Of a DNA stretch of 58,076 nt, positions 6,090 to 22,258 are shown one piece after another. Source of the stretch: Erysipelotrichaceae bacterium (GTDB lineage Bacteria > Bacillota_I > Bacilli_A > RFN20 > CAG-449); NCBI GenBank assembly GCA_015059095.1, contig SVBA01000011.1, positions 1 to 58,076 of the forward strand. The letters run 5' to 3'. The translations under genes were made by a program, and so were the position numbers. The notes beneath the pieces are model-generated. The model saw only the letters and a program-made list of their open reading frames with translations. It was not told the origin of the DNA and searched no databases. Numbering within the stretch: position 1 is the first letter of the stretch; every line of letters begins with the position of its first letter.

Positions 6090-6345
6090 AAAAAACTCGT
6101 CCCTAGAAAAATCTAAGGACGAGATTATAATCAATAATCACGTGTTACCACCTTAATTCACCTATATAATCACTTATATAAGCCTCATAGAGTACTACAT
6201 ACTCATCTGCTATAACGGGCATTCCCGAATGATACTACATATCGCACCATTAGCTCAAAGGCCATGTTCAATCTTTTTCAGTTATCTTCTTTCACCAATT
6301 GAAGACTCTCTAGGAACTTAATTATAGATTTACTCTTCCTCATCT
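6090..6345 (-). promoter_or_regulatory. T-box leader, methionine specifier
   Basis: Read on the minus strand, the leader begins GAGGAAGAGTAAAT, continues with an AGAGAG/GGTGAAAGAAG distal loop region, then GAACATGG, whose ATG (6263-6265) sits where the specifier codon is expected after GAA. The T-box core AAGGTGGTAACACG (6141-6154) follows and would bind the uncharged tRNA acceptor end. It ends with a terminator hairpin (arms 6112-6123 and 6096-6107) and a T-run just before metN. Uncharged tRNA-Met should stabilise the antiterminator and switch on metNIQ. Confidence 0.93.
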
Positions 6346-6359
6346 ACGCTTATGTTAAG

Positions 6360-7167: not shown

Positions 7168-8379
7168 ATGAAAGTAGTAATTATTGGAGCAGGACCTAGT
7201 GGATTAATGTGCGCGATTAACGCTAGTAAGAATGGTCATGATGTAACAATTTTAGAAAAAAATGAAAAAGCAGGTAAAAAAATTTATATTACAGGAAAAG
7301 GTAGATGTAATATCACAAATAATTGTGATGTTAATGAATTTATGAATAACGTTGTAAGAAATAACCGCTTTTTATATTCTGCTATCAACACATTTAAACC
7401 AATTGATACTATTTCATTTTTTGAAGATAGAGGAGTACCATTAGTAACTGAAAGAGGTAATAGAGTATTTCCGCTTAGTTATAAAGCAAGCGATATAACT
7501 AGAGTATTAACAAATGAATGTCAAAAAAATAAAGTAAGAATCTATTATCATAGTGATATTTATAAAATTGAAAAAGTAAAAGAAAAATTTGTTGTAAGTT
7601 ATAATAAAATTTTACAGATTGAAGCTGATAAACTAGTTATTGCAACAGGTGGACTATCATATCCTTTAACAGGATCTACAGGTGATGGATATACATATGC
7701 TAAACAGTTTGGTCATAGTATTATTGATACTTATCCTAGTCTTTGTTGTTTAAGAGTAAGTGATAAAGTAAGCTATGACGCTGATGGATTAACTTTAAAA
7801 AATGTTTGTCTACACGCCTATAATGATAAGGTTAGATATTCTTTTGAAGGAGAAATGAATTTTGCAAAAGGAATTATAGATGGACCAATTGTTTTAAAAC
7901 TAAGTACCCTTATACAAGAAGAAAAGAATTTAAGATTGTTTGTAGATTTAAAAATGGCGTTAACTAAGGAACAATTAAATGAACGCTTAATTAGAGATTT
8001 TAGCCAAAATCCTAATCTTTCTTTAAAAGAAGAGTTAGGTAAATTACTACCTCCTCAAATGATTAAAGATTTCATTACTAGAATAAAAATGGAGCCATCA
8101 ATTAAGTTAAATTCTATTAGAAAAGAACAAAGAGAAAAAATTGTTTCATATTTAAAAAGATATGATTTAGATTATCTTGGTTTAGGAGGATATAATCGTG
8201 CGATTGTTACTAGAGGTGGAGTCAGTATTAAAGAAGTAAATCCAAAAACATTTGAATCTAAAATAGTGCCTAATTTATATTTTGTAGGTGAAGTTTTAGA
8301 TGTCGATGCATTCACAGGTGGATTTAATATGCAAATCGCATTATCAACAGGATTTACATGTGGAAAATATATGGTATAG
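7168..8379 (+). CDS. FAD-dependent oxidoreductase, HI0933/BaiN family
   Basis: A 403-residue flavoprotein. The N-terminus is a dinucleotide-binding GAGPSGL motif (residues 7-13) followed by GKGRCNITN, a hallmark of the HI0933/YhiN/BaiN family. The C-terminal FVGEVLDVDAFTGGFNMQIALSTG segment binds FAD in this family. Some members reduce bile-acid intermediates in gut bacteria; most have no known substrate. GAGGT precedes the ATG and a TATACT box lies at 7142-7147. It is followed closely by a membrane protein gene whose ribosome site overlaps this stop codon. Confidence 0.85.
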   Translation: MKVVIIGAGPSGLMCAINASKNGHDVTILEKNEKAGKKIYITGKGRCNITNNCDVNEFMNNVVRNNRFLYSAINTFKPIDTISFFEDRGVPLVTERGNRVFPLSYKASDITRVLTNECQKNKVRIYYHSDIYKIEKVKEKFVVSYNKILQIEADKLVIATGGLSYPLTGSTGDGYTYAKQFGHSIIDTYPSLCCLRVSDKVSYDADGLTLKNVCLHAYNDKVRYSFEGEMNFAKGIIDGPIVLKLSTLIQEEKNLRLFVDLKMALTKEQLNERLIRDFSQNPNLSLKEELGKLLPPQMIKDFITRIKMEPSIKLNSIRKEQREKIVSYLKRYDLDYLGLGGYNRAIVTRGGVSIKEVNPKTFESKIVPNLYFVGEVLDVDAFTGGFNMQIALSTGFTCGKYMV

Positions 8380-8390
8380 GAGAAAAGATT

Positions 8391-9107
8391 ATGTGGAAAA
8401 AAGAAGATAATAAGAAGCAAAAAAGACCATCATATTTACCAGATACTACTAGTTTCAAATGGAAAGTAAAAGTTTTCTTTGGTAAGATATTTCGTCCAAG
8501 TCAATATAATGGAACAATTGAACAAGAACAAAAAAATAATAGAAGAAAGAATAAAAATTACTCATATTCTTCATCAAATAAAACTAAGTCTAATTTCAGT
8601 TTTAGTGGTGAATTTGATTTAGTTAGATTCTTATGGGTTGTTATTCCGACAATTTTATTAATTACAATATCTATACTATCTGCGTGTAATTTAATAATCC
8701 CTGCTTTTGATAATTTAGAGGATGTAATGTTAGATATGATTAATAATGCAGAATTTATGTATTTAACAATAAGACTCTGGGAATGGTTGACAGGGTTATT
8801 AAATAATTATGTTCTTTTAGCTATTTTATTAGGATTATTTATTTTAGCAGCAATTTTAGTTTTAATTATTTTGGAAGGAATATTATTTATTTTATTCTGG
8901 ATACTATATATCATTATATTCTTATTATTTGTATTAATAGGTAATATTTCAATGATTGTTTTACCACTAGCGATGTGTGTATTTATAGTAATTATGAGTG
9001 TAAAAGCATTTAATGATGGAGAAAATCAAATACCATCTGCAAGCTGTATTATTTTAAGTTTTATTTCTCTTATTATTTACTATATAACTTTCTTCACAAA
9101 TTATTAA
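8391..9107 (+). CDS. Multi-pass membrane protein, unknown
   Basis: A 238-residue protein: a basic, Asn/Ser/Lys-rich cytoplasmic N-terminus of about 75 residues, then roughly five to six hydrophobic segments. The start at 8391 is preferred because AGGAGA (8378-8383), overlapping the stop of the flavoprotein gene, is correctly spaced; an in-frame ATG at 8358 lies inside that gene. No conserved motif is recognised. It probably shares a transcript with the flavoprotein. Confidence 0.6.
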   Translation: MWKKEDNKKQKRPSYLPDTTSFKWKVKVFFGKIFRPSQYNGTIEQEQKNNRRKNKNYSYSSSNKTKSNFSFSGEFDLVRFLWVVIPTILLITISILSACNLIIPAFDNLEDVMLDMINNAEFMYLTIRLWEWLTGLLNNYVLLAILLGLFILAAILVLIILEGILFILFWILYIIIFLLFVLIGNISMIVLPLAMCVFIVIMSVKAFNDGENQIPSASCIILSFISLIIYYITFFTNY

Positions 9108-15323: not shown

Positions 15324-16982
15324 TTAAACATCTTGGAAACAAGAATTTCCAATAAATTCTCTTAAAATAGAGTTGCAAGGTATCCATTTATCATCCATAT
15401 CTACAAATAATTTTAAGAATTTGATTAATCTATTTGCGGTTAGATAATATGGACCATTTTTATCGATAGCATTTAATAAAGGTAATGCATATTTTCTTAC
15501 AATACATAATTCATAAGGTAGTAGTGAATTGAACACAAAATCAGCATTCTCTTGAGTATCATAAATCCATTTAAATTCACCTTTTCTTACACTAGGCCAC
15601 ATTGAAATAGTTTCTTCGGCAGAAGATCCTCTAAATTGAAAATCTCGTACTATTCTCCTGACTAGCCTTAAGTCTGTTAGAGAAATAGGGTTATGGTTGT
15701 CTATATTGATTTGTGCTTGAGGAGCAATAAAAATTTTAAATTTTTGATGCTTTGGAATTAACGAAGTTAATTTGTCATTTAAAGCATGGATTCCTTCGAT
15801 AATTAGTGGTTGATCTTCATCAATTTTTAATGTTTTACCAGGTACTTGGTAACCTAATTTGAAGTCAAATCTAGGCAAAGTAACTTCTTCTCCATTAATT
15901 AATTTATATAAATCTTCATTAATTCTTTCGACTTCTAGAGCTTCTAAACATTCTAAATCTGGCTCTCCATTTTCATCAAGCGGTACATCTTTTCTTTCTT
16001 TATAATAATCGTCTAAACTTAATCTAATTGGTCTTAGTCCCTTAGACATAAGTTCTACTCTTAAGCGGTTAGCAAAAGTTGTTTTTCCAGAACTTGATGG
16101 GCCGGCAATACAGATAAGTCTAATATTTTCTGAACCAGACGAAATGCGGTTGCCTAAGTCTGCTAACATGGAGTTATGACGTTGTTCACACATATTTATA
16201 AAATCAATTGGACCATCGTTTAAAGCATAACTATTAATAGAAGCAACATCATCAGTATTTACTAATTTTGCCCAAGAATAAGAATCTTTTAAAGTTTTAC
16301 CAAAAATAGGAGCGTCTTTAAATTCTGGAATTTCACCTTTTACTTCGCTTCTAGGGTATTGAATTATAATTCCATTTCCATAAAGTCTTAATTTGTAATC
16401 TTGAATATGACCGGTTGAAGGAACCATATGACTATACATATAATTTACATAACCATTACATTCATATAGATGTACTGTTTTTTCAGGACGATACTTGATA
16501 ATGTCTATTTTATCAAATAAATTTCGTTGAAGATAGATTTTCTTAGCCTCTTCATTACTAACAACTTTCCTTACTAAAGGGTAATCTTGAGAAATAATGT
16601 AATCTATTTCTTCTTTTAATTTATTCATTAAAGTTAAGTTGATTTTGAAATTATTGTTAGCAGTTCCTTTAAATGATAAGAAAATAGAACGTGAAATATT
16701 ATAAGAAAATTTGATGTCAATATTAGGGAACACTTTAGAACAAGCATAAGCAATAATATATCTTAAAGAAGTTTCATAGATTCTATTAGTGTGCTCATCA
16801 CCTTTTTTTAATAATATAACTTCAGCGTCATAAAATATTTCATAAGTTAGTTCTCTTAATCTATTATTAACTTTTGCGTAAATATATTGATGCTTATCAC
16901 CTTTAATTAAATCGAGAATTTTTACTTTTTTATCAAAAGTAAGTATTTCATTATTAATTTTTACTTTAAAACTATTTTCCAT
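15324..16982 (-). CDS. Uridine-kinase-like nucleoside kinase with TGS-like N-terminus
   Basis: A 552-residue protein with three parts. Residues 1-60 look like a TGS-type beta-grasp domain. About 60-270 resembles the second additional domain of threonyl-tRNA synthetases (it has HMVPSTGHI). About 285-490 is a P-loop kinase of the uridine kinase/phosphoribulokinase family with Walker A GPSSSGKTT and LDDYYKERKDVP. This architecture is known in Firmicutes as a putative nucleoside kinase; the phosphate acceptor is uncertain. A strong AAAGGAGGT site precedes the ATG. It stands alone. Confidence 0.82.
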   Translation of the reverse strand: MENSFKVKINNEILTFDKKVKILDLIKGDKHQYIYAKVNNRLRELTYEIFYDAEVILLKKGDEHTNRIYETSLRYIIAYACSKVFPNIDIKFSYNISRSIFLSFKGTANNNFKINLTLMNKLKEEIDYIISQDYPLVRKVVSNEEAKKIYLQRNLFDKIDIIKYRPEKTVHLYECNGYVNYMYSHMVPSTGHIQDYKLRLYGNGIIIQYPRSEVKGEIPEFKDAPIFGKTLKDSYSWAKLVNTDDVASINSYALNDGPIDFINMCEQRHNSMLADLGNRISSGSENIRLICIAGPSSSGKTTFANRLRVELMSKGLRPIRLSLDDYYKERKDVPLDENGEPDLECLEALEVERINEDLYKLINGEEVTLPRFDFKLGYQVPGKTLKIDEDQPLIIEGIHALNDKLTSLIPKHQKFKIFIAPQAQINIDNHNPISLTDLRLVRRIVRDFQFRGSSAEETISMWPSVRKGEFKWIYDTQENADFVFNSLLPYELCIVRKYALPLLNAIDKNGPYYLTANRLIKFLKLFVDMDDKWIPCNSILREFIGNSCFQDV

Positions 16983-17116
16983 ACAAATACCTCCTTTGTA
17001 TAGGAATTAAATAATACAATGAAAGCCCTTAAATAGCAAGCATTATTTTTTAGAAATTATATTAATTATTAATAAATAAAAATTTATAAAACAAAAATAT
17101 ATAAGTTTTACTTATA

Positions 17117-17145
17117 TTGTTTTTTAAATGTAGATAGTTTATAAT
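17117..17145 (+). promoter_or_regulatory. Promoter of the M18 aminopeptidase gene
   Basis: TTGTTT (17117-17122), 17-nt spacer, TATAAT (17140-17145). The leader to the ATG at 17214 is about 60 nt and otherwise featureless AT-rich sequence. Confidence 0.65.
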
Positions 17146-17213
17146 TAATGACATAAATTTACTAAAACATAATAAGTTTATTTTTAGATTATATTAATAG
17201 GAAGGAAAATAAT

Positions 17214-18617: not shown

Positions 18618-19361
18618 ATGTCGGATCAATGTATATTTTGTACAAAAACAGTTTATAAAAATTCAATGTGTGAAGGTCATTATCAGACCTATATAGAACA
18701 CAAGCAAAAACTATTTGATGAAGATAAAAAATCAATAGATTTTAAACCTCATTATCACAACTTAAAACATAAAATTTATAATATGATTACTTATCCTCAT
18801 ATTGTAGATTTATGTATTAAGTTAATCGCAATAGCTGATTTATATTACGAGAAATATGATAAATCAGAACTAAAATTGGTGGTAATAAATGACGTAAACA
18901 AAATAATTAGATATAAAGTAAAACAAATTAAAGAAAATAGAGCAATAATGGATTCAAGATATTCGAAATTATTTAATGATATTGATTTTAGAAATAAATG
19001 GAAAAAAGATATTAAAACAGAAGATGGTCATTATGTAAGAAGTAGAGCAGAACAATTAATAGATAATTTCTTATATCATAATAATATTGTCCATGCTTAT
19101 GAAAAGTTAATAATTTTACCGTTTCAAAATGAAGCAACAATATTGTGTGATTTTTATATACCAGAGATTGATACATATATTGAATATTATGGAAAGTATG
19201 ATGAAGAATATATTGCAAGAAAATATGCTAAAGAACAAATATATAAAGAGAATAATCTAAATCATATTGCGTTAGGAAGAAAAGACTTAGACAATCTAGA
19301 TGATATATTAATGAGAGAAATATTAATTCATCGAATACAAAAGAAAAAAGGACAACAATAG
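18618..19361 (+). CDS. PD-(D/E)XK-type nuclease with N-terminal zinc finger
   Basis: A 247-residue protein. The N-terminus has a C-x2-C-x9-C-x2-H zinc site (C5, C8, C18, H21). A helical linker follows. The C-terminal ~110 residues carry RSRAEQ (E145), LCDFYIP (D178) and YIEYYG (E189), the acidic pattern of a restriction-endonuclease-like fold. DNA or RNA cleavage is expected from the fold; the target is unknown. AAAGGAGG precedes the ATG. The stop lies inside a GGACAAC/GTTGTCC hairpin, just before the 3' end of the oppositely transcribed tRNA-fMet. Confidence 0.65.
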   Translation: MSDQCIFCTKTVYKNSMCEGHYQTYIEHKQKLFDEDKKSIDFKPHYHNLKHKIYNMITYPHIVDLCIKLIAIADLYYEKYDKSELKLVVINDVNKIIRYKVKQIKENRAIMDSRYSKLFNDIDFRNKWKKDIKTEDGHYVRSRAEQLIDNFLYHNNIVHAYEKLIILPFQNEATILCDFYIPEIDTYIEYYGKYDEEYIARKYAKEQIYKENNLNHIALGRKDLDNLDDILMREILIHRIQKKKGQQ

Positions 19362-19369
19362 TTGTCCTT
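19348..19369 (+). terminator. Weak terminator after nuclease gene
   Basis: AAGGACAAC (19348-19356) pairs with GTTGTCCTT (19361-19369). The stem is good, but only two T residues follow, so efficiency is doubtful. Confidence 0.45.
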
Positions 19370-19378
19370 GAATAAACA

Positions 19379-19456
19379 TGGTTGCAGGGGCAAGATTTGA
19401 ACTATGCGACCTCCGGGTTATGGGCCCGACGAGCTACCGGACTGCTCTACCCTGCG
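19379..19456 (-). tRNA. Initiator tRNA-fMet (CAT)
   Basis: The minus strand gives CGCAGGG...CCCTGCA-ACCA with encoded CCA. Initiator identity is shown by the unpaired C1-A72 and three consecutive G-C pairs (GGG/CCC) closing the anticodon loop CCCATAA (anticodon CAT). Two oddities: position 33 is C, where bacterial tRNAs normally have T, and the T-stem reads GCATAG/CTTGC, with one extra T relative to the usual five pairs, making the gene 78 nt. It may still fold with a bulge. The upstream promoter is separate from that of tRNA-Asp/Phe. Confidence 0.88.
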
Positions 19457-19473
19457 ATGTGGTTTGCTTGATT

Positions 19474-19502
19474 ATAATATCATTATATTTTATTATATGC
19501 AA
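19474..19502 (-). promoter_or_regulatory. Promoter of tRNA-fMet
   Basis: On the minus strand, TTGCAT (19497-19502), 17-nt spacer, TATTAT (19474-19479). Transcription would start about 10 nt before the mature tRNA end. Confidence 0.65.
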
Positions 19503-19526
19503 GTAATTTTTTTATATTCTTTAAAA

Positions 19527-19583
19527 ATAATAAAATATAATGATGAGCAGTCCTAGCTCGAATATTGTCGCATAGTTCAAAAT
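19527..19583 (+). pseudogene. Decayed inverted copy of tRNA-fMet and its promoter
   Basis: Plus strand 19527-19544 is an exact 18-nt copy of the fMet promoter spacer (complement of 19479-19496). It is fused directly to GAGCAGTCC-TAGCTCG, the D-arm minus GG, then, after loss of the anticodon arm, to GTCGCATAGTTCAAA (19567-19581), identical to the T-arm of the intact gene including its extra T. It cannot fold as a tRNA. Confidence 0.75.
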
Positions 19584-19631
19584 GTGAATTAGTATTTTTT
19601 AGTGAATTATGAAATATTTGGAGAAAATAAT

Positions 19632-19646
19632 GGCCTGTTCCACCAT
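19632..19646 (+). repeat. Inverted fragment of the tRNA-Phe 3' end
   Basis: GGCCTGTTCCACCAT matches the 3' end of tRNA-Phe (GGCCTGGGCCACCAT) at 13 of 15 positions, in the opposite orientation to the gene. It sits symmetrically across the palindromic terminator at 19658-19677 from the intact 3' end. Confidence 0.55.
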
Positions 19647-19657
19647 AAAACAAAAAA

Positions 19658-19677
19658 AGAGGAAGAATTCTTCCTCT
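19658..19677 (-). terminator. Perfectly palindromic terminator of tRNA-Asp-Phe
   Basis: A perfect 20-nt palindrome with arms AGAGGAAGAA and TTCTTCCTCT. On the minus strand it is followed by seven T residues, fitting termination downstream of tRNA-Phe. Confidence 0.75.
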
Positions 19678-19690
19678 AATTTTCTTTAAA

Positions 19691-19766
19691 TGGTGGCCCA
19701 GGCCGGAATCGAACCGGCGACACAGGGATTTTCAGTCCCTTGCTCTACCAACTGAGCTACCGGGCC
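19691..19766 (-). tRNA. tRNA-Phe (GAA)
   Basis: A complete 76-nt cloverleaf with encoded CCA. Acceptor GGCCCGG/CTGGGCC, D-arm GCTC...GAGC, anticodon stem AGGGA/TCCCT with loop CTGAAAA (anticodon GAA), T-arm GCCGG-TTCGATT-CCGGC. It lies nine nucleotides downstream of tRNA-Asp and shares its promoter. Confidence 0.97.
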
Positions 19767-19775
19767 AATTGTTAA

Positions 19776-19851
19776 TGGCGGACCAGACGGGAATCGAACC
19801 CGCGATCTTCTCCGTGACAGGGAGACATGTTAACCGCTACACCACTGGTCC
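19776..19851 (-). tRNA. tRNA-Asp (GTC)
   Basis: A complete 76-nt cloverleaf with encoded CCA. Acceptor GGACCAG/CTGGTCC, anticodon stem TCTCC/GGAGA with loop CTGTCAC (anticodon GTC), T-arm CGGG-TTCGATT-CCCG. It is the first gene of a two-tRNA unit with tRNA-Phe. Confidence 0.97.
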
Positions 19852-19867
19852 TTAACAACGCTATATT

Positions 19868-19896
19868 ATTATCACTAATCTATAGAAAAAATGCAA
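19868..19896 (-). promoter_or_regulatory. Promoter of tRNA-Asp-Phe
   Basis: On the minus strand, TTGCAT (19891-19896), 17-nt spacer, GATAAT (19868-19873). The -35 and spacing equal those of the tRNA-fMet promoter. Confidence 0.65.
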
Positions 19897-19909
19897 GCGT
19901 TTTTTAAAA

Positions 19910-20005
19910 AAACTTTACATTTTTTCTTAACATGTCTCCTGTCATCTTTGAAGATCGGGTCCGCCCATTAAAAATTAGCCCTATCCTGTGTCGCCTAGGT
20001 ATTGA
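19910..20005 (+). pseudogene. Decayed inverted copy of the tRNA-Asp-Phe unit
   Basis: Plus strand 19914-19927 resembles the Asp -35 region (TTTACATTTTTTCT versus TTGCATTTTTTCT). It is joined to TAACATGTCTCC-TGTCA, GAAGATCG and GGTCCGCC-CATTA of tRNA-Asp with internal deletions. The intergenic spacer and tRNA-Phe follow in the same order: AATTAGCCC, then ATCCTGTGTCGCC. The copy keeps gene order but lost most of both tRNAs. Neither part can fold as tRNA. Confidence 0.75.
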
Positions 20006-20148: not shown

Positions 20149-21699
20149 ATGGAAAGATATGAATTAATCGAAAGATCGATTACCACTAGATTCAGAGCAA
20201 GAATCTGGTCAAAATTTGTTAAAGCAATTAAAGATTATCAATTACTCCAACCTGGAGATAAAGTTTGCTGCTGTATTTCTGGTGGAAAAGATTCTATGAT
20301 AATGGCAAAGTGTTTTGAATTATTACATAGATATTCTGATTTTGACTTTGAAGTAAAGTATATGGTTATGAACCCAGGATACAATAAAAAAAATTTAGAT
20401 ATGATTGTGAATAATCTTAAAATATTAAATATTGACGCGACTATTGTAGAAACAAATATTTTTGAAGTAGCTGCAATTCAAACAAAGTCACCTTGTTATT
20501 TATGTGCACGTATGAGGAGAGGAGCATTATATAGAATTGCTGAAGATTTAGGATGTAATAAAATCGCATTGGGTCACCATTTTGATGATGTTATTGAAAC
20601 TACTTTACTAAATATGTTTCAAGTGGCAAAAATTGAAACAATGCTTCCAAAACTTCATAGTGATAACTTTAATGGTATGCAATTAATTAGACCATTATAT
20701 CTGATTAGAGAACAAGACATCATATCTTGGTCAACATACAACGAATTAGAATTTATTGCATGTGCTTGTAAATTTACAGAAGAATATAAAAATGCTGCTG
20801 ATCATATTGGTGGATCAAAAAGAGCATATATCAAGGCTCTGATTAAAGAATTAAAGAAAGATAACAAAGATTTTGAAGGTAATATTTTTAAAAGTATGGA
20901 AAATATTAATCTAGACAAAATTATTGGATATAGAAAAAGCGGACAAAAACATTCGTATTTAGATAATTATGATAATTTAATAAAAAGTAATGACTCATTT
21001 TCAAGAAGTGAAAAACTTTTAGGAACTGAAGGAATAGAAAAATTGAAGAATGCGAAAGTACTTTTATTTGGTGTCGGAGGAGTTGGAGGTCATATTGCTG
21101 AAGCTCTTGCTAGAAGTGGAATAGGTAGAATTGATTTAGTAGATAATGATTTAGTTTCATCAACAAATATAAATAGACAAATTGTAGCTTTAAATTCGAC
21201 AATAGGACATTATAAAGTTGATATTATGAGAGAAAGAATCATTGACATTAATCCAAAATGTGAAGTAAAAGCGTTTAAATTATTTTATTTGCCTAAAAAT
21301 TCAAATACATTTGATTTTTCTCAATATGATTATGTAATTGATGCTGTTGATACGGTTACTGCTAAAATAGAAATTATCGAAAAAGCAAAAAAATCAAATG
21401 TAAGAGTAATTAGTGCAATGGGTGCAGGAAACAAACTAGACCCAACTAAATTTGTTGTAACTGACATTTCCAAAACAAAAGTTTGTCCTCTTGCAAAAGT
21501 AATGAGACACGAATTAAAAAAACGAGGAATCACAAATTTAAAAGTAGTTTATTCGACTGAAGAAGCAATTAAATTTCCTTCTCAAGAAGGAGAAAAAGTG
21601 GTTCCTGGAAGTGTTTCATTTGTTCCATCAGTATGTGGATTAATAGTAGCAAGTGAAGTAATTAAAGATTTAATTAAAGAGGAAAAAAATAATGAATAA
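20149..21699 (+). CDS. TtcA-TcdA fusion, tRNA anticodon-loop modification
   Basis: A 516-residue two-domain protein in one uninterrupted frame. Residues 1-265 are a TtcA-type 2-thiocytidine synthetase: PP-loop SGGKDSM (about 44-50), Cys pair C116/C119 and Cys 205/207 for a 4Fe-4S cluster. TtcA thiolates C32. Residues 285-516 are a TcdA/CsdL-type E1-like enzyme with ATP-binding GVGGVGG (about 308), DNDLVSSTNINRQ, KVCPLAKVMRHELKKRG and a C-terminal SFVPSVCGLIVASEVI. TcdA dehydrates t6A37 to cyclic ct6A. Both act on the anticodon loop, and the gene follows the tRNA cluster. It overlaps the GNAT gene by 8 nt. Confidence 0.9.
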   Translation: MERYELIERSITTRFRARIWSKFVKAIKDYQLLQPGDKVCCCISGGKDSMIMAKCFELLHRYSDFDFEVKYMVMNPGYNKKNLDMIVNNLKILNIDATIVETNIFEVAAIQTKSPCYLCARMRRGALYRIAEDLGCNKIALGHHFDDVIETTLLNMFQVAKIETMLPKLHSDNFNGMQLIRPLYLIREQDIISWSTYNELEFIACACKFTEEYKNAADHIGGSKRAYIKALIKELKKDNKDFEGNIFKSMENINLDKIIGYRKSGQKHSYLDNYDNLIKSNDSFSRSEKLLGTEGIEKLKNAKVLLFGVGGVGGHIAEALARSGIGRIDLVDNDLVSSTNINRQIVALNSTIGHYKVDIMRERIIDINPKCEVKAFKLFYLPKNSNTFDFSQYDYVIDAVDTVTAKIEIIEKAKKSNVRVISAMGAGNKLDPTKFVVTDISKTKVCPLAKVMRHELKKRGITNLKVVYSTEEAIKFPSQEGEKVVPGSVSFVPSVCGLIVASEVIKDLIKEEKNNE

Positions 21700-22258
21700 A
21701 CTTTTTGAATCTAATCCTAAAATTGAAAATTCTTCATATCGAATTAGATTAGTAAGAAAAAAAGATTTAGATGACTTATTAGAATTGTATTCCAATACAG
21801 ATAATATTAGATATATAAATAATGACGATTGTAATGGTGATAATTTTTATTATCAAAGCAAAGAAGAACTAATTGAAAAATATACTTTTTGGAAGCACGC
21901 ATATACTAAGAAATGGTTCATTAGATTATCTCTAATCGATAAAAAAGAAAATAAAGTAATTGGTGTCATAGAACTTTTAAAAAGAGGTGGATATGATTCT
22001 TTTAAAGATTCGATTGTGATTAGATTAGATTTAATTTCAAGATACGAAATCAAAGATAACTTAGTAGAAATTTTAGGGTTGCTAGAAAATAAACTAAGAA
22101 AAACATGTAAATATAGTAAAATTGCTATTAAAGCATTTGATGAACAAAAAGAAAGAATAGAAGCATTAATTGCACTTAATTACAAACTATCTAGTAGAAA
22201 AATGATTGGTCTTGAGGATAATAAAGAATATAAAAATTATTATGTCAAAAGAAAGTAA
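21692..22258 (+). CDS. GNAT-family acetyltransferase-like protein
   Basis: A 188-residue protein resembling GNAT N-acetyltransferases: IRLVRKKDLDDLLELYSN at the start, a KVIGVIELLKRGG strand where acetyl-CoA contacts occur, and a C-terminal pairing segment. The canonical Q/RxxGxG/A loop is weak, so activity is unsure. It starts inside the ttcA-tcdA gene (GAGGAAAAAAATAATG), so it is coupled to it. It might act on the translation apparatus, which is inference from context alone. Confidence 0.6.
   Translation: MNKLFESNPKIENSSYRIRLVRKKDLDDLLELYSNTDNIRYINNDDCNGDNFYYQSKEELIEKYTFWKHAYTKKWFIRLSLIDKKENKVIGVIELLKRGGYDSFKDSIVIRLDLISRYEIKDNLVEILGLLENKLRKTCKYSKIAIKAFDEQKERIEALIALNYKLSSRKMIGLEDNKEYKNYYVKRK

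Follow-up and report, generated by a model that had tools for sequence, protein, structure and literature searches.

Introduction

Tandem inversion duplications (TID) of Salmonella, reportedly described by Kugelberg et al. in 2010 (cited in PMC4689423 and PMC8763031), are composed of a copy, an inverse copy and a further copy with palindromic junctions, and are later remodelled by deletion. Around Asp-Phe, the tRNA locus analysed here may resemble them in this geometry, in its palindromic junctions and in its later remodelling by deletion. The Salmonella duplications come from laboratory amplification selection, whereas the present case is natural, a few hundred bp in size, located in a tRNA operon and preserved only as remnants.

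On a smaller scale, RNA genes are known to undergo template switching at hairpins (PMC8794818), and quasipalindrome-associated template-switch mutations (PMC7202029; PMC8794818) are, like the copies reported here, short reverse-complement copies arising at hairpins. Compared with such mutations (PMC7202029), some of our copies are longer and take in entire tRNA genes. Origin-dependent inverted-repeat amplification in yeast (PMC4689423) shares with the locus palindromic junctions at short inverted repeats and an inverted triplication; unlike it, the yeast process needs an origin and an extrachromosomal intermediate and acts on a much larger scale. Inverted duplications centred on palindromes are also permitted in Escherichia coli lacking SbcCD and RecA (PMC3315005), and occur at palindromes in yeast lacking Mre11 nuclease activity (PMC10622511).

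The mutation type is already known. The interest of the locus is its natural setting at tRNA terminators, with several events at one locus and recurrence in related genomes; mutations of this type are rarely caught in a wild bacterial genome.

Decayed inverted copies of three tRNA genes

The window (the whole stretch of DNA analysed, 58,076 nucleotides from the Erysipelotrichaceae genome G000) contains three intact tRNA genes on the minus strand, each identified with ARAGORN and Rfam RF00005: tRNA-fMet (CAT, 19379–19456), tRNA-Phe (GAA, 19691–19766) and tRNA-Asp (GTC, 19776–19851). The fMet gene has an intrinsic terminator hairpin (19348–19369, minus strand) and a promoter region recognised from its sequence (19457–19511, minus strand; −35 TTGCAT, −10 TATAAT). 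The Asp promoter (−35 TTGCAT), with an A/T tract, occupies 19852–19905 on the same strand, and the Phe terminator hairpin lies at 19658–19677. Elsewhere in the window, Rfam RF00230 identifies a T-box leader at 6112–6355 (minus strand, 122 bits).

Decayed copies of these genes, all inverted, lie on the plus strand, as defined by alignment and its scores. The first, fMet′ (19512–19581), carries the fMet promoter spacer and pieces of the D-arm and T-arm, with deletions. Its recognisable tRNA and promoter match (19527–19581) includes an exact 18-nt copy of the promoter spacer (ATAATAAAATATAATGAT), the D-arm pieces GAGCAGTCC and TAGCTCG and a 15-nt exact match (GTCGCATAGTTCAAA). The second (19632–19667) consists of an inverted Phe 3′ end (19632–19646, 13/15 positions) and the left half of the palindrome around the Phe terminator. 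The third, Asp′-Phe′ (19906–20003, recognisable match 19914–20003), contains the Asp −35 region, Asp, the Asp–Phe spacer and part of Phe in that order with deletions, 84 of the 94 alignable positions being identical.

When only the tRNA body was used as query, fMet′ reached a score of 44, where shuffles gave at most 30 (z 10.3); for Asp′ the score was 45.5 and the shuffle maximum 31 (z 9.2). Both exceeded all 3,772 cross-pairings of tRNAs with the flanks of other, unrelated tRNAs (maximum 40). The Phe′ part of the third copy is weaker when scored alone (p about 0.01), and its −35 piece is AT-rich and weak taken by itself. The Phe 3′-end piece is not significant alone (p 0.07) and is convincing only because it forms part of a 73-nt palindrome (19632–19704). 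The preliminary description, which had reported inverted decayed copies of all three tRNAs, the make-up of fMet′ and Asp′-Phe′, and scores unlikely to be matched by shuffled sequence, is thus borne out; its Phe 3′-end copy stands as part of the palindrome, but not as the exact 15-nt match it was taken for. A scan of all 37 tRNA genes of G000 found clear inverted copies only at the fMet/Phe/Asp locus, while direct (non-inverted) decayed copies were near background, with none of fMet, Phe or Asp. Inverted matches at Pro, Arg, Thr and Leu loci were weak, in or near the cross-pairing null, and were not counted.

The copies have lost their acceptor stems, the greater part of the anticodon arms and their own promoters, and the Rfam tRNA model finds no match in them, even at E up to 10. 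The plus-strand copies are mutational scars, not genes. A retained function (as a pseudo-tRNA or tRNA-like RNA, a regulatory RNA or an extension of a bidirectional terminator), which the preliminary description had kept as an option, might be read from the fact that the terminator at 19658–19677 scores on both strands. These losses speak against it, as does the absence of the remnants from the sister genomes G001 and G005 and the rest of the order searched; any RNA made from them would also be sense-like to the tRNAs rather than antisense. We regard a retained function as very unlikely.

Since the promoter spacer and the intergenic spacer were copied, and not only the mature transcript, a retrotransposed tRNA pseudogene is ruled out, and the earlier interpretation of the fragments as DNA duplications by foldback, not reverse-transcribed tRNAs, is upheld. 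tRNA genes are common integration sites, and solitary PD-(D/E)XK or restriction-type nuclease genes adjoin fMet in G000 and in its relative G002, which might suggest that mobile elements, attaching at the 3′ ends of tRNA genes, left integration scars here. Integration of this kind duplicates the 3′ end as a direct repeat, whereas every copy at this locus is inverted and promoters and spacers are included. An integrase attachment-site duplication was rejected for lack of a direct 3′-end repeat, the flanking genes examined yielded no integrase, and an origin by integration seems most improbable. Short-read assembly can produce chimeric inverted joins, and G000 is a metagenome-assembled genome in 38 contigs; a misjoin, by contrast, does not produce the many substitutions and internal deletions of the copies, and the same class of structure occurs in the separate assemblies G002, G156 and G042, so that an assembly artefact is scarcely credible.

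Palindromic centres and foldback synthesis

Each inverted copy is adjacent to its intact counterpart and shares a palindromic centre with it. Palindrome 1 (19479–19544, E 1.2e-8), whose intact arm belongs to the fMet promoter region, is centred at 19511.5, where an A/T palindrome, itself imperfect, precedes the fMet −35 box. Palindrome 2 (19632–19704, 73 nt, 81%, E 1.6e-13) is the strongest of the 58-kb window, and its centre, 19668, coincides with the Phe terminator stem-loop. Palindrome 3 (19884–19927, E 1.5e-7) has arms at 19884–19905, in the Asp promoter, and 19906–19927, and its centre (19905.5) is the TTTTTTAAAAAA tract at 19905/19906, upstream of the Asp −35 box. T-run/A-run tracts occur upstream of the Asp −35 box in relatives too (G005, G006 and G007). 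Of the centres previously placed, the first (near 19513) lies close to our 19511.5 and the second (19668) is the same; the third, 19888, was displaced from 19905.5 because the copy arm has lost about 50 nt by deletion.

The terminator and the Asp A/T tract are pre-existing inverted repeats, and the fMet centre is weaker in this respect. The events seem to have been seeded at the intrinsic terminator and at A/T tracts that precede the −35 boxes, rather than at the cloverleaf of the tRNAs. Template switching or foldback, as proposed in the preliminary description, is supported by these centres and by separate similar cases in relatives; its location of the event at tRNA hairpins is refined by these seeds.

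We consider it probable that several short events of foldback (hairpin-primed, template-switch) DNA synthesis left the plus-strand fragments behind as scars. A 3′ end would fold on an existing inverted repeat (the Phe terminator hairpin, or the A/T tracts that precede the −35 boxes of Asp and fMet) and be extended backwards along the neighbouring tRNA gene, so that inverted duplications would arise in head-to-head and tail-to-tail arrangement. At Asp-Phe, inverse copies flanking both sides would have made a small symmetrical tandem inversion duplication, since decayed. The redundant arms would then be lost by deletion and substitution, which would remove the long palindromes as well. Folding on a hairpin followed by synthesis would explain the inversion, the inclusion of promoters and spacers, the palindromic centres on terminators, the partial length and the multiplicity of the copies. 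The copies, their orientation and centres, their absence in sister genomes and the separate cases elsewhere are observed, and the enzymatic route, the number and order of events and any role of missing SbcCD are inferred.

Inverse pieces are present on both sides of the intact Asp-Phe pair, as are both palindromic junctions. The expected pattern is direct, inverse, direct, and the left copy survives only as the Phe 3′-end remnant; to this extent the arrangement is reminiscent of a tandem inversion duplication that has decayed. Counting against foldback synthesis, no intermediate retaining both arms intact was seen, and the A/T seed of palindrome 1 is imperfect.

Ancestral arrangement of the locus

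In relatives, the order fMet-Asp-Phe runs along a single strand and diverges from a uridine-kinase-like gene, or else has longer tRNA arrays upstream of it. The window homologue of the kinase gene is at 15324–16982, and in the frame of the window the ancestral tRNA direction is the plus strand, i.e. the orientation of the remnants. In the kinase tree, G000 is sister to G001 plus G005 (support 99/97), and G002 falls outside this group. The gene order in G001 and G005 is kinase(−) fMet(+) M18(−), and that of G000 is kinase(−) M18(+) nuclease(+) fMet(−), followed by fMet′(+). Comparison of these orders suggests that the intact fMet gene, together with its neighbour M18, is in a newly inverted orientation relative to the kinase gene, and that the plus-strand remnant keeps the ancestral one. 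The right-hand neighbour ORF (21692–22258) is shared with G001, where the intact Asp-Phe pair has the same orientation relative to it, so no strand flip can be claimed for Asp-Phe within the clade.

The loci of G001 and G005 contain no significant inverted or Asp′ remnants, and the remnants of this locus were not found elsewhere in the order in what was searched. They are a derived state, absent in the sister lineages. A motif left of Phe in G001 (GGTTCGAGTCTGG) was dismissed as a remnant, being too short.

The inverted fMet-M18 pair is what would be expected of an ordinary or repeated inversion, by recombination or staggered breaks, that left breakpoint duplications without foldback synthesis. 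A staggered-break inversion should place the duplicated pieces at opposite ends of the segment, and here they stand back to back on short palindromes. No fMet remnant was found at the other breakpoint, between kinase and M18 (16983–17213), nor does any inverted segment separate the copies in the Asp-Phe and tRNA-Glu cases. We therefore judge inversion alone an improbable source of the copies, and retain foldback synthesis as the preferred reading.

Two neighbouring ORFs are of separate interest. The ORF adjoining fMet (18618–19361) matches PADLOC PDC-S69 and PD-(D/E)XK candidate defence nucleases (E 2e-32), and a 37% homologue is located near the Asp-Phe genes of G012. The ORF at 20149–21699 is a fusion of an N-terminal TtcA-like PP-loop ATPase and a C-terminal ThiF/TcdA-like domain. 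In several relatives (e.g. G001, G003, G004, G006, G010 and G016) tcdA and then ttcA are separate adjacent genes in the opposite order, which makes the fusion a permuted one.

Separate cases in related genomes

Approximately 185 tRNA genes of relatives were scanned for inverted copies, and G002 stands out. Its fMet gene has a copy of its 3′ half arranged tail-to-tail across the terminator (8434–8466, z 8.0). Its fMet promoter holds an inverted 16-mer of the anticodon arm (15/16) between the −35 and −10 boxes (8274–8289, p 0.0015) and was apparently rebuilt by a template switch; this spacer replacement has the size of quasipalindrome template-switch mutations (PMC7202029). The spacer of this promoter (L060 8259–8321) is largely the reverse complement of the fMet anticodon arm. 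The inverted copy of Phe in G002 (p 0.02) is probably genuine. A 23-nt match to the fMet 3′ end inside a nuclease ORF (8907–8929) was treated as possible chance. Between fMet and Phe, G002 also carries a type II restriction-enzyme-like ORF (L060 8470–9219; PADLOC REase_II, E 3e-13), which suggests that solitary nuclease genes insert recurrently into the fMet–Phe gap.

Two T-arm pattern scans across 279 genomes of the order led to five genomes, from which a clear case (G156) and a weaker one (G042) were accepted. In G156, the tRNA-Glu gene faces a decayed copy of itself, tail-to-tail, with its terminator between them (z 8.8; found by pattern search, so that its rate cannot be read from the 3,772-pairing null), and G042 shows a weaker trace at the same place (p 0.02). 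At L089 11721–11872, a palindrome of 93 columns (E 1.3e-8) takes in the 3′ end of a tRNA-Leu and may be a further extension centred on a terminator.

SbcD in genomes with and without remnants

SbcD is a palindrome nuclease. No SbcD match was found in G000, G002, G156 or G042, and SbcD is present in G001, G003 and G004. Genomes without SbcD mostly lack a remnant in what was scanned (G005, G006, G007 and most of genus g25), and the association between SbcD absence and remnants is not significant, with small numbers and with G002 only 76% complete. Because most SbcD-less genomes show no remnant, any role of the missing SbcCD would at best be permissive; the pattern is suggestive, a lead and not a result. 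The duplications of E. coli lacking SbcCD and RecA (PMC3315005) are, like those here, centred on a pre-existing inverted repeat, and SbcD was not detected in our remnant genomes. The E. coli duplications differ in being chromosome-scale and hairpin-capped, whereas ours are local, with copies that range from 15 to about 200 bp.

Discussion

Strand changes of single genes or small operons are frequent between related bacteria, and their route is seldom visible. At this locus and its counterparts in relatives, intermediates survive in part-decayed form and the events can be traced to recognisable seeds, the terminator hairpins; a link to the palindrome nuclease SbcCD that can be tested is also suggested. 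We tentatively propose that in small AT-rich Bacilli, often without SbcCD, tRNA terminators and the A/T tracts upstream of promoters may act as recurrent foldback seeds, and that inverted duplication followed by random loss could then lead to tRNA strand changes and operon splitting. Such a process in Bacilli would be a bacterial counterpart of the inverse duplication-loss model of mitochondrial gene order.
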